Part shown: in pieces, positions 44,731 through 47,183 of the stretch
How the letters are laid out: every line of letters begins with the position of its first letter
Numbering within the stretch: position 1 is the stretch's first letter
Assembly: GCA_015296075.1 (NCBI GenBank)
Contig: DVDV01000190.1
Span: forward strand, 1 to 52,680
DNA: 52,680 nucleotides
Reading direction: 5' to 3'
DNA from: Leptolyngbyaceae cyanobacterium M33_DOE_097
GTDB lineage: Bacteria > Cyanobacteriota > Cyanobacteriia > Leptolyngbyales > Leptolyngbyaceae
Notes under the pieces: model-generated
What the model was told of the DNA's origin: nothing
Databases searched by the model: none
What the model saw: only the letters and a program-made list of their open reading frames with translations
Made by a program: the position numbers and the translations under genes

Positions 44731-45060
44731 ATGCGATTTATCAATATTCTGCGACCTGTTCGCGTTTTGATTGTTGCTTTTATTTGCACCATTTTGTTTG
44801 TTACTAATTCGTTGCCTGCGCTTGCTGACACCTACCGCAGCCAGCCCACTGAAGGCGAAGCTCAGTTGAAGGAAACTTACCGCAACTCTGAAAGGACGTT
44901 GCAAAATCCGCCTAAAGATCTGAAAGAAGCTGCAAAGCGTTCAAATGAAGGTCTGAACGAAGTGCAAGGTGATGCTGACATCGACAAGATGGAATACTCT
45001 GAAAAAGGTGTTGCAATCAAAGACAAGATCGAAAAGGCATTAGAGAAAGTGACGAAGTAG
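44731..45060 (+). CDS. Low-temperature-induced-type small secreted protein
   Basis: 109 aa. The signal peptide MRFINILRPVRVLIVAFICTILF... ends near PALAD, and the mature part reads TEGEAQLKETYRNSERTLQNPPKDLKEAAKRSNEGLNEVQGDADIDKM in blocks. This matches a family annotated in cyanobacteria as low-temperature-induced protein; function unknown. The GAGGAG at 44717-44722, eight nt before the ATG, is an unusually strong ribosome site for this window and suggests high expression. Confidence 0.82.
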   Translation: MRFINILRPVRVLIVAFICTILFVTNSLPALADTYRSQPTEGEAQLKETYRNSERTLQNPPKDLKEAAKRSNEGLNEVQGDADIDKMEYSEKGVAIKDKIEKALEKVTK

Positions 45061-45239: not shown

Positions 45240-46091
45240 TTAAGCTGCAACGGGTACGGCTGCTTGGGTACCTAAAAAACGACCCACAGCGGCCGCTATT
45301 GGCTCAAGGCTGTGGGTTAGTTGAATCATGTCTTCAATCGAGAGGGCTTGACGGGCATCGGAAACCGACTTTTCGGGTTCGGGATGACATTCAATAATGA
45401 GGCCATCTGCACCCGCTGCGATCGCGGCACGGGCCAGGTCGGCAATCAGCTCACGCTTACCTGCCGCATGGCTGGGGTCAACAATCACAGGCAGATGAGT
45501 CAGTTGTCTGAGTGCGACCACTGCGCCTAAGTCTAAAACGTTGCGAGTGTAAGTATCAAAGCTCCGAATTCCGCGTTCGCACAGCACGACATTGGGGTTG
45601 CCATGCGCCAAAATGTACTCGGCTGCCATGACAAATTCTTCGATTGTGGCGGCTAAGCCACGCTTTAACAGAATCGGTTTATCTACTTCACCCAATGCTT
45701 TCAACAAATCAAAATTTTGCATGTTGCGGCTGCCGACTTGCAGCATATCGGCGTGTTGAGCGATCGCCTCAATTTGAGAGATAGCCATCACTTCAGTGAC
45801 GATGGGCATACCATAGCGCGATCGCGCCGATGCCAAAATTTCTAACCCTTCAACCCCTAACCCCTGGAAGCTATAGGGTGACGTGCGGGGCTTGTAAACT
45901 CCACCGCGCAAAGCGTGAACGGGCGCTTGAGACAGGCGACGAGCGATCGTGTCGATCTGCTGTTGATTTTCGACGGTGCAGGGGCCACCAATCACAACGA
46001 CTGACTTATCACCGATCGCAACGTCAACGGACAAATTCACAACTGTGCGATGGTTTGCATGTTGCTTGAGTGATAGTTTTGCCTCTTTCAT
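45240..46091 (-). CDS. aroF: AroF, 3-deoxy-7-phosphoheptulonate (DAHP) synthase, type I-beta
   Basis: 283 aa. It joins phosphoenolpyruvate and erythrose 4-phosphate in the first step of aromatic amino-acid synthesis. Family motifs: VVIGGPCTVENQQQI, RGGVYKPRTSPYSFQGLG, DMLQVGSRNMQNFDLLKALG, PILLKRGLAATIEEFVMAAEYI, NVVLCERGIRSFDTYTRN and PVIVDPSHAAGKRE. It lacks the ACT-type regulatory N-domain of some relatives, so it is probably not feedback-inhibited through such a domain. This fits control instead at transcription: two tandem leader-peptide/terminator units (46137-46407) lie before it. 'agaggaacc' precedes the ATG as ribosome site. Confidence 0.96.
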   Translation of the reverse strand: MKEAKLSLKQHANHRTVVNLSVDVAIGDKSVVVIGGPCTVENQQQIDTIARRLSQAPVHALRGGVYKPRTSPYSFQGLGVEGLEILASARSRYGMPIVTEVMAISQIEAIAQHADMLQVGSRNMQNFDLLKALGEVDKPILLKRGLAATIEEFVMAAEYILAHGNPNVVLCERGIRSFDTYTRNVLDLGAVVALRQLTHLPVIVDPSHAAGKRELIADLARAAIAAGADGLIIECHPEPEKSVSDARQALSIEDMIQLTHSLEPIAAAVGRFLGTQAAVPVAA

Positions 46092-46136: not shown

Positions 46137-46164
46137 AAAAAAGCCCGGAGTTGGATCCGGGCTT
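46137..46164 (-). terminator. Attenuator terminator 2 of aroF
   Basis: On the minus strand AAGCCCGGA (46164-46156) pairs with TCCGGGCTT (46149-46141) around a 6-nt loop, a 9-bp perfect stem, followed by TTTTATT. It lies 24 nt after the stop of leader peptide 2 and about 45 nt before the aroF ATG. A terminator placed before, instead of after, the gene on its own strand points to attenuation. Confidence 0.93.
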
Positions 46165-46185
46165 TGGTGAAACTTGCGCGTGCCA

Positions 46186-46274
46186 ACCTTACCCGGTGTT
46201 TATGCCGATAAAAAAGTAAAAACCGTAAAGCCAGGAAGTCAGAAATAGCATTGAAGTCACGCGGGGGGTAAGGT
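46186..46274 (-). promoter_or_regulatory. Alternative helices of attenuator 2
   Basis: Segment 1, ACCTTACCC (46274-46266), just before leader ORF 2, is perfectly complementary (9 bp) to segment 2, GGGTAAGGT (46194-46186), at the leader-2 stop. The overlapping GGTTGG can instead pair with CCAACT (46154-46149 region) in the loop and 3' arm of terminator 2, with CCGG/CCGG outside it. A ribosome stalled on the Phe/Tyr codons would sit between segments 1 and 2. The pairings are visible; the mechanism is inference. Confidence 0.6.
46189..46251 (-). CDS. Aromatic leader peptide 2 of aroF (20 aa)
   Basis: ATG at 46249-46251 to TAA at 46189-46191 encodes MLFLTSWLYGFYFFIGINTG. Seven of 20 residues are aromatic: Phe3, Trp7, Tyr9, Phe11, Tyr12, Phe13, Phe14. 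All Phe codons are TTT and both Tyr codons are TAC. There is no clear Shine-Dalgarno site; GTG at 46260 is an in-frame alternative. The position just before a terminator and upstream of DAHP synthase marks it as a regulatory leader, not a functional protein. Confidence 0.85.
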   Translation of the reverse strand: MLFLTSWLYGFYFFIGINTG

Positions 46275-46293
46275 TTTTTCAGATTTAAGCCAT

Positions 46294-46322
46294 TAAAAAG
46301 CCGCAGGGTTAATTCTGCGGCT
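46294..46322 (-). terminator. Attenuator terminator 1 of aroF
   Basis: On the minus strand AGCCGCAG (46322-46315) pairs with CTGCGGCT (46306-46299) over an 8-nt loop, followed by TTTTAATG. It lies 28 nt after the stop of leader peptide 1 and about 45 nt upstream of leader ORF 2. Confidence 0.92.
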
Positions 46323-46367
46323 CACCAAGAGTAGATAGCAAAAAATGCCGTCACCCCTGGTGAACCG
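46318..46367 (-). promoter_or_regulatory. Antiterminator helix of attenuator 1
   Basis: CGGTTCACCAGGGG (46367-46354), codons 14-18 of leader peptide 1 right after the aromatic run, can pair over 14 positions (11 Watson-Crick, 3 G-U) with CTCTTGGTGAGCCG (46331-46318). The second strand contains AGCCG, five of the eight bases of the 5' arm of terminator 1. Terminator and this helix exclude each other. A ribosome that reaches the stop codon would cover the first strand and permit termination. Confidence 0.8.
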
Positions 46368-46407
46368 GAAAATACCAAAAATAAAAGTAGCGAGTGCTGT
46401 GAGTCAT
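46351..46407 (-). CDS. Aromatic leader peptide 1 of aroF (18 aa)
   Basis: ATG at 46405-46407 to TGA at 46351-46353 encodes MTHSTRYFYFWYFPVHQG, with seven aromatic residues in a row (residues 7-13: Y F Y F W Y F). Codons are TAC TTT TAT TTT TGG TAT TTT. Such a run before a terminator and a DAHP synthase gene is the mark of ribosome-mediated attenuation. No clear Shine-Dalgarno site, as in many cyanobacterial genes. Confidence 0.92.
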   Translation of the reverse strand: MTHSTRYFYFWYFPVHQG

Positions 46408-46442
46408 GCGGATGCCGACAAAGAAAGTTGCAGTTGATCTAG

Positions 46443-46472
46443 AAGCTAACAAACTTACTCAAGCTCCGTCAA
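46443..46472 (-). promoter_or_regulatory. Candidate promoter of the aroF leader transcript
   Basis: On the minus strand TTGACG (46472-46467) as -35 and TAGCTT (46448-46443) as -10 with an 18-nt spacer. The start would be near 46436, 29 nt before leader peptide 1. The -10 match is weak. Confidence 0.4.
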
Positions 46473-46967: not shown

Positions 46968-47183
46968 ATGAGCAGGTTCAGTACAGTAGTTATGGTTTGT
47001 TTGGCGGTGGTGGTTCCACTGCTGATTACTACTGATGCTGTGGCCGCTTCGTCGCAAGTTGGAAGTGGCTTTGCTACTGTTGAGCCTTCTGCTTCTATGG
47101 CCGCAACAAATTGGAAGCTAGCTTCCTACAAGCCGCCTAAGAAACCACCACCAAAGCGCTCTACTGGTACTGGAACGCGATAA
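46968..47183 (+). CDS. Small secreted peptide with basic Pro/Lys tail
   Basis: 71 aa. A signal peptide (MSRFSTVVMVCLAVVVPLLITTDAVAAS) is followed by a short mature part with NWKLASYKPPKKPPPKRSTGTGTR. The 'PPKKPPPKR...GTGTR' tail resembles the proline-rich, TR-ending segments of several small cyanobacterial exported proteins, but no function is known. It lies alone, with 560 nt to the aroF leader on the divergent side and 206 nt to the ABC transporter. The bias toward TCT/GCT codons and a clean signal peptide support it as a real gene. Confidence 0.65.
   Translation: MSRFSTVVMVCLAVVVPLLITTDAVAASSQVGSGFATVEPSASMAATNWKLASYKPPKKPPPKRSTGTGTR

Follow-up and report, generated by a model that had tools for sequence, protein, structure and literature searches.

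On the minus strand of the window, by which we mean the whole stretch of 52,680 nucleotides of cyanobacterial DNA analysed here, two similar units stand in series before aroF (45240..46091, (-)), the gene for a short DAHP synthase of 283 aa without the FXD regulatory domain. Upstream of both is a promoter-like site with a -35 element TTGACG (46467..46472, (-)) and, across a spacer of 18, a -10 element TAGCTT (46443..46448, (-)) that is a weak match to the consensus. The first unit begins with leader ORF 1 (46351..46407, (-)), an open reading frame encoding MTHSTRYFYFWYFPVHQG and a stop codon, which has seven consecutive aromatic codons and is conserved with the rest of unit 1. The last codons of this ORF form segment 2, GGTTCACCA (46358..46366, (-)), which pairs with segment 3, TGGTGAGCC (46319..46327, (-)), identified by alignment and covariation; the 3' part of segment 3 is common to the intrinsic terminator 1, AGCCGCAG..CTGCGGCT followed by a U-tract (46295..46322, (-)), with an 8-bp stem and a loop of 8 supported by folding and covariation. 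The second unit repeats this plan. Leader ORF 2 (46189..46251, (-)), conserved with unit 2, encodes MLFLTSWLYGFYFFIGINTG and a stop codon, and 7 of its 20 residues are aromatic. Segment 2 of this unit, CCGGGT (46191..46196, (-)), consists of the end of the ORF and the first base of its stop codon and by covariation pairs with segment 3, GCCCGG (46157..46162, (-)), which alignment and covariation show to be common to antiterminator and terminator. Intrinsic terminator 2, AAAGCCCGGA..TCCGGGCTTT and a U-tract (46137..46165, (-)), has a 10-bp stem and a loop of 6 and is supported by terminator scan, folding and covariation.

Fold predictions for the window show both terminators; a simple terminator scan (8 sites in 4 kb against 4.9 expected) picks terminator 2 and misses terminator 1. 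The pattern of five aromatic codons in a row (four F/Y plus Trp) occurs at 4 sites in the 7.0 Mb genome, and the reversed control pattern at 5. The locus is flanked by two small ORFs at 46968-47183 (+) and 44731-45060 (+), neither with a Pfam match at E up to 0.01; the former is divergent from the aroF leader.

The product of aroF is identified as DAHP synthase by PF00793 (E 2e-80) and TIGR01361. No PF18152 domain was found in it at E up to 1, and the open frame, 319 aa from stop to stop, is too short to contain that domain. The other DAHP synthase of the same genome, the paralogue at locus L082, has the ferredoxin-like PF18152 ahead of the catalytic PF00793, and neither the unit 1 nor the unit 2 model has a match at its locus. 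PF00793 without PF18152 was found in the window AroF and in all five relatives tested, a comparison of six short proteins with one long that does not extend across the phylum. 1zco and 1vs1 are the closest solved structures of equal length, and 1rzm is longer; we take 1zco to be an unregulated and 1rzm a feedback-inhibited enzyme.

To follow the units through the relatives of AroF we used the best 80 of 538 loci found by search as named loci. Two (L021 and L022) were excluded from scoring, their upstream regions being truncated at contig ends, and the 79 scorable loci include the window. Both units precede aroF in 77 of the 79, unit 1 being present in 77 and unit 2 in all; L065 and L066 have unit 2 only. 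Two aromatic ORFs with terminators within 336 nt, kept in 77/79 loci, are not a product of chance. Unit positions were set by hand after reading the sequence in L001, L017, L036 and L076 (unit 1) and in L053 and L060 (unit 2). In L065 (L065:200-240), read by eye, unit 1 has given way to a sequence with a short GC-rich palindrome at its end, directly ahead of unit 2, which looks like the terminus of an insertion sequence.

One model was made for each unit, R1 with 49 of 77 rows and R2 with 58 of 79, once redundancy had been cut at 93% and 3 and 6 odd rows, respectively, had been set aside; both were applied to 386 genomes of the phylum. A DAHP synthase match at E 1e-60 or better was obtained in 318 of these genomes, and 38 hold a closely related short AroF (over 350 bits; the match in G382 is partial). 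The unit 1 model matches in 39 genomes, namely 37 of the 38 with the short AroF together with G030 and G086, and the unit 2 model in 37, all among the 38. Both units are thus found in 36/38 short-AroF genomes, with unit 2 only in G143 and unit 1 only in G116, and each model matches once in every genome with a match. The G086 match to unit 1 (E 0.01) was judged false on reading the sequence. In 14 additional relatives unit 1 was present in all and unit 2 in 13 (L155 is without unit 2); G427 was left out, its match lying at a contig end. Pooling the whole genomes that hold the short aroF gives both units in 49 of 52, a count which overlaps with the 77/79 above as some genomes are of the same species as named loci. 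Units before this aroF were found in ten cyanobacterial families of the sample.

Some of these loci are irregular. In G030 (L112, G030:C48:71000-75500) the short aroF is decayed and the unit 1 terminator lacks its 3' arm, so far as can be read by eye, as if attenuator and gene decay together. At L114 (G382:C1:3949000-3958500) both units are intact and the partial aroF match lies ~6 kb downstream, which is likely to reflect an insertion within the gene. The aroF match at L093 (G042:C1:3292652-3293470) has one in-frame TGA and both of its units score well.

A promoter-like site is found upstream of unit 1 in 76 of 77 loci, with a median of 108 nt (range 78-220) from the -10 element to the ORF1 stop, and between the units in only 2 of 77, these stretches being short. 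The pattern used, T(T/A)GA(C/A)N and NANNNT separated by 16-19 nt, of which 8 or more of 12 bases had to match, is permissive and was applied to a stretch of ~220 nt without a chance control. The site in the window matches 8/12 bases and was not picked by a stricter scan.

Typical leaders read M..SYFYFWFRVVHRE and stop in unit 1 and MTYFSSWFYGFYFWPRxSSG and stop in unit 2. All three of F, Y and W are encoded by 76 of 77 leaders in unit 1 and by 79 of 79 in unit 2. Of the codon differences within the aromatic core, the share that is synonymous or exchanges one aromatic residue for another is 59% in unit 1 and 71% in unit 2, against 14-28% by the same measure in the other two frames, and even two-base changes, such as TGG to TTT or TAC, preserve an aromatic residue; the codon tables skipped seven and eight loci with shifted registers. 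This pattern suggests selection for aromatic codons rather than for one particular peptide or for T-rich DNA. The C-termini are conserved as well, with V-H-R/L before the ORF1 stop and W-P-R..S-G before the ORF2 stop. A Shine-Dalgarno-like site is found before 36 of 72 ATG starts in unit 2 (4.6 in shuffled sequence) and before 2 of 76 starts in unit 1 (2.9 shuffled), and none was seen before either ORF of the window. Since such sites are scarce at unit 1 and absent at the window ORFs, translation of the leaders is inferred from their codon evolution.

Two side observations concern ORF2. In L053 and L060 it keeps the aromatic run and the pairing segment without a stop codon at the usual place, and a ribosome would therefore continue towards the terminator. 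A GTYRYR motif lies within 23 nt past the ORF2 stop in 64 of 79 loci (7.0 shuffled), at an offset of 3-5 in 58, and sits inside the antiterminator loop (the equivalent in the window is 46188-46166, where by eye the motif is absent); it could conceivably be a pause hairpin.

In each unit, then, the 5' arm of the terminator has a second possible partner in the last stretch of the leader ORF, and antiterminator and terminator are therefore mutually exclusive. We counted the four helices on alignments of 77 rows (unit 1) and 79 rows (unit 2) with 500 shuffles. Antiterminator 1 is paired in 95.1% of cells, with 35 two-sided cells against a shuffled mean of 5.6; the corresponding values are 99.2% and 9 against 0.6 for terminator 1, 91.6% and 18 against 4.7 for antiterminator 2, and 93.9% and 32 against 12.6 for terminator 2. 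None of the 500 shuffles reached the observed number of two-sided cells in any of the four helices. In terminator 1 the count of further pair types did not exceed that of the shuffles (228/500 as high). The cells are sequences and not evolutionary events, and kinship of the rows inflates such tests. The register of the helices provides another measure: when one partner is slid, the paired cells fall to 62% or less in all four, so that the true register is far the best. Slides of +1, +2 and +3 in antiterminator 2 give 13, 16 and 18 two-sided cells, with only 52%, 23% and 13% of cells paired. Both alternatives, antiterminator and terminator, covary in both units. In unit 2 of L076 the pairing segments are altered (TCCGAGC with GCTCGGA) and the pairing is retained; in L029 and L076 segment 2 of this unit lies directly past the stop codon. 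The antiterminator of unit 2 in the window has 6 bp only. Segment 2 fits its own unit better than the other, with a median longest helix of 12 and 9 against 6 and 6, and units 1 and 2 within a locus are somewhat alike (mean z 4.0, and 3.0 past the aromatic run), a likeness that might reflect a recent duplication of one unit, though each pairing segment suits its own unit.

The sequence-only reading had described both leader ORFs and a terminator after each, between a promoter and aroF. The ORFs read exactly as stated and both terminators are in place behind the promoter-like site. The conservation in relatives that it proposed as a check, of both ORFs and both hairpins, is found, with aromatic-for-aromatic codon swaps and compensatory base changes. 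It had missed the antiterminator that joins each ORF to its terminator.

Other structures were considered and rejected. A conserved 1:2 protector hairpin, suggested by the 10-bp match AACCTTACCC:GGGTAAGGTT in the window, is not above chance across the loci; a segment 1 helix better than 95% of its own shuffles was found in just 5/77 (unit 1) and 4/79 (unit 2). No known Rfam leader is present in the window at the gathering threshold among Trp_leader (RF00513), Thr_leader (RF00506) and 4225 others, the scores of these two being 17.8 of 41 bits and 20.8 of 55 bits, respectively.

The effect of ribosome position was modelled by placing each codon in turn in the A site, deleting the RNA beneath the ribosome (as far as 12 nt downstream of that site) and folding the remainder, with the probability of the terminator outer stem as the measure, in 76 of 77 rows for unit 1 and 79 for unit 2. 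The mean terminator probability of unit 1 is 0.44 with the ribosome at codon -12, 0.27 at -9, 0.56 at -8, 0.74 at -7 and 0.90 at -6, remaining at 0.89-0.92 from -6 on. The aromatic run occupies codons -12 to -7, and its last codon (-7) is already past the switch. In unit 2 the mean is 0.57-0.65 through the last aromatic codon (-7), 0.84 at -6 and 0.91-0.95 from -5. At equilibrium the unit 2 loci are split during the stall and only a minority switch, with medians of 0.82-0.87, 27-37% of the 79 loci below 0.3 and 53-59% above 0.7. When segment 2 (the last 14 nt of the ORF) is shuffled, the mean terminator probability is 0.85 or more at every position. For ribosome-free RNA compared with a ribosome at the stop codon, the means are 0.46 and 0.89 in unit 1 and 0.67 and 0.95 in unit 2, with ribosome-free medians of 0.50 and 0.90, respectively.

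A second measure considered only the RNA made before the 3' arm of the terminator, which suits co-transcriptional folding and is not a kinetic simulation. By this measure the 5' arm is held by segment 2 in unit 1 with a mean of 0.97-0.98 (codons -14 to -9), falling to 0.13 at -6, and in unit 2 with a mean of 0.85-0.86 (codons -14 to -6), falling to 0.11 at -3; it is free in both units with the ribosome at the stop codon. In the window itself the terminator probability of unit 1 rises from 0.62-0.69 (codons -12 to -8) to 0.95 at -6, and the pre-terminator sequestration falls from 1.0 (codons -14 to -9) to 0.0 at -6. Unit 2 of the window has an equilibrium terminator probability of 0.87-0.91 at every position and a pre-terminator sequestration of only 0.40. 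As this unit hardly switches in the model, gate 2 of the window may be the weaker one, or partly a constitutive damper. The model therefore predicts a ribosome position switch near the end of the aromatic run that is clear in unit 1 and partial in unit 2.

A sample of 40 genomes from another class of Cyanobacteriota, inferred to be non-photosynthetic from the name Candidatus Obscuribacter, contains single as well as tandem leaders. In family f41 a single aromatic leader and one terminator precede a short DAHP synthase in three of the four genomes with a match (G343, G390 and G398), and no leader was found near the match of G402 (L131). In family f43, an Obscuribacter-like family with tandem leaders, there are two leaders in G397, G408 and G401 and one in G404, with none near the more distant match of G386. 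For unit 1 the models give support at L132-L135 (E 7.9e-9 or better), and for unit 2 at G397 and G401 (E 3e-4 and 7e-4). The f41 leaders and the second leader of G408, whose stem has no U-tract, are supported only by inspection of ORF and stem, joined in G390 by a weak unit 1 match (E 0.008). In a protein tree L069 (Candidatus Obscuribacter) groups with four f43 proteins (95/96), and this group falls inside a clade of cyanobacterial proteins (99/99) with f41 outside. The support values are rough: 22 of the 38 inner branches are unresolved and the bootstrap had not settled. As it groups with four f43 genomes, the L069 locus is probably genuine and not contamination. Taking all the samples together, unit 2 stands alone in G143, L065 and L066 and unit 1 alone in G116, L135 and L155. 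Each unit is also found without the other and the units are therefore modules; the direction of change was likely from single to tandem.

From this evidence we consider it likely, with a probability of about 0.8, that aroF is gated by ribosome-mediated attenuation acting twice in series for one signal. The ORFs, the terminators, the mutually exclusive and covarying helices, their conservation, the domain difference between the two enzymes and the switch in the model are shown; transcription, translation, stalling, termination, the logic of the series and its physiological role are inferred. In this mechanism a single transcript from ~46437 would pass two attenuators before reaching aroF, and in each of them a ribosome would translate a leader bearing Phe, Tyr and Trp codons. 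With all three charged tRNAs plentiful, the ribosome would reach the stop codon and cover segment 2, and the terminator (3:4) would form. With any of the three short, it would stall in the aromatic run and leave segment 2 free to pair with segment 3; the terminator could then not close and RNA polymerase would proceed. Read-through of the pair would be the product of two probabilities, giving a lower basal expression and a steeper response. Hence aroF would probably be transcribed only when the cell is short of aromatic amino acids, although we have no expression, ribosome or 3'-end data that bear on this.

The first description had also proposed ribosome-mediated attenuation, which is supported here by the conservation of ORFs and terminators under a single promoter-like site upstream of both units. 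Its suggestion that two gates in series multiply repression remains an inference only, and its double gate needs the qualification that in the folding model gate 2 of the window switches only weakly. It had missed the existence of single-gate versions and the restriction of the device to a DAHP synthase without a regulatory domain. Because the gated enzyme is the one without the allosteric domain, the double gate probably supplies, at the RNA level, the control that the paralogue has from feedback inhibition. The simplest reading, inferred and put forward as a possibility, is that double transcriptional gating restrains a DAHP synthase in which allosteric control was lost or never present. A bolder one can be drawn: two classes of Cyanobacteriota place a DAHP synthase that has no allosteric domain under two serial attenuators for the same signal, reading all three aromatic tRNAs; read-through replaces feedback inhibition and gives a steep response with little leak; and the series probably grew from a single gate such as that in the family of the other class. 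We incline to this view by a narrow margin.

The rival that survives best, though we think it unlikely, is that one gate alone regulates, while its partner is a relic, acts as a constitutive damper or marks where a separate gene for a small RNA or small protein ends. In its favour, single-gate loci exist and the unit 2 antiterminators are weaker in the model, that of the window most of all. Against it, antiterminators and terminators covary in both units, both are retained in 36/38 genomes, and a promoter-like site lies between them in 2/77 loci only, short as these stretches are. Nascent-chain arrest, in which the conserved C-termini would stall the ribosome on a free aromatic amino acid or other ligand rather than on uncharged tRNA, is very improbable. 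TnaC-type systems act by nascent-chain arrest, and both leaders here do have conserved C-terminal residues. However, segment 2 is made up of these conserved last codons, which covary with the non-coding segment 3; a change in the RNA pair alters the residue (CAC to CGC, His to Arg, in 6/70 rows); and F, Y and W interchange in the aromatic run, which an arrest motif could hardly tolerate. It is also most doubtful that the units sense slow or blocked translation in general, as under antibiotics or stress, with their aromatic richness secondary. In the model, antitermination is favoured by a stall anywhere upstream of segment 2, and termination is less probable in ribosome-free RNA than with a ribosome at the stop codon; but F, Y and W are all present in 76/77 and 79/79 leaders, and the target gene serves exactly these amino acids. 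Finally, chance ORFs in T-rich sequence beside ordinary terminators are all but excluded: the aromatic run is no more frequent in the genome (4 times) than the reversed control, but conservation, the reading-frame test and covariation rule this explanation out.

Serial attenuation by two leader peptides, the reading we prefer, has consequences that the locus makes testable: whether transcription-translation coupling in cyanobacteria is tight enough for attenuation, whether serial gates raise sensitivity, and whether a missing allosteric domain accompanies transcriptional control. Loci that naturally carry just one of the two gates offer ready controls. By arithmetic on the theory of single-gate attenuation (PMC1183508), the read-through of two independent gates would be a product and their logarithmic sensitivities would add, which has not been shown. 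The arrangement also bears on the engineering of aromatic products in cyanobacteria.

In the open-licence literature we searched (subscription papers were outside its scope) we met no cyanobacterial attenuator and no case of serial leader-peptide attenuators for the same signal. Amino-acid attenuation is known chiefly from Proteobacteria and Actinobacteria; according to a 2010 paper (PMC2965389), which also describes tandem terminators in the rimP leader, leader-peptide attenuators had not been shown outside these groups before its own Firmicutes case, and a 2016 paper (PMC4833913) states that reliable data on attenuation in cyanobacteria are lacking. Like the trp, phe and his leaders of Proteobacteria and Actinobacteria, each aroF unit has a leader ORF rich in codons for the product, an intrinsic terminator and a mutually exclusive antiterminator. 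Unlike them, it lacks a conserved 1:2 hairpin, nearly every leader contains all three aromatics, and two complete units stand in series, in Cyanobacteriota. Before aroF in other bacteria, the uORFC-13-1 motif lies just upstream of an apparent terminator in Acholeplasma (PMC8632094), a putative Phe-Tyr-Phe leader is found in Corynebacterium glutamicum (PMC4046766) and an aroF motif is listed in Shewanella (PMC2659441). The Acholeplasma and Corynebacterium leaders place aromatic codons before a DAHP synthase gene, as here, but belong to other phyla, and no tandem arrangement is given in the pertinent sections. Two sensors and two likely intrinsic terminators share one leader in the tandem riboswitches of Bacillus clausii metE (cited in PMC3641672), which differ in binding two different ligands directly and in having no leader peptide. 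A comparable plan is seen in the Salmonella mgtCBR leader (PMC3641672), a single leader with two short ORFs that each belong to an attenuator. Its signals are ATP for mgtM and proline for mgtP, with additive effect, the stem-loops are unlike intrinsic terminators, and the arrangement is called a singular example for different signals; in the aroF leader, by contrast, both peptides contain F, Y and W, and there is an intrinsic terminator in each unit.
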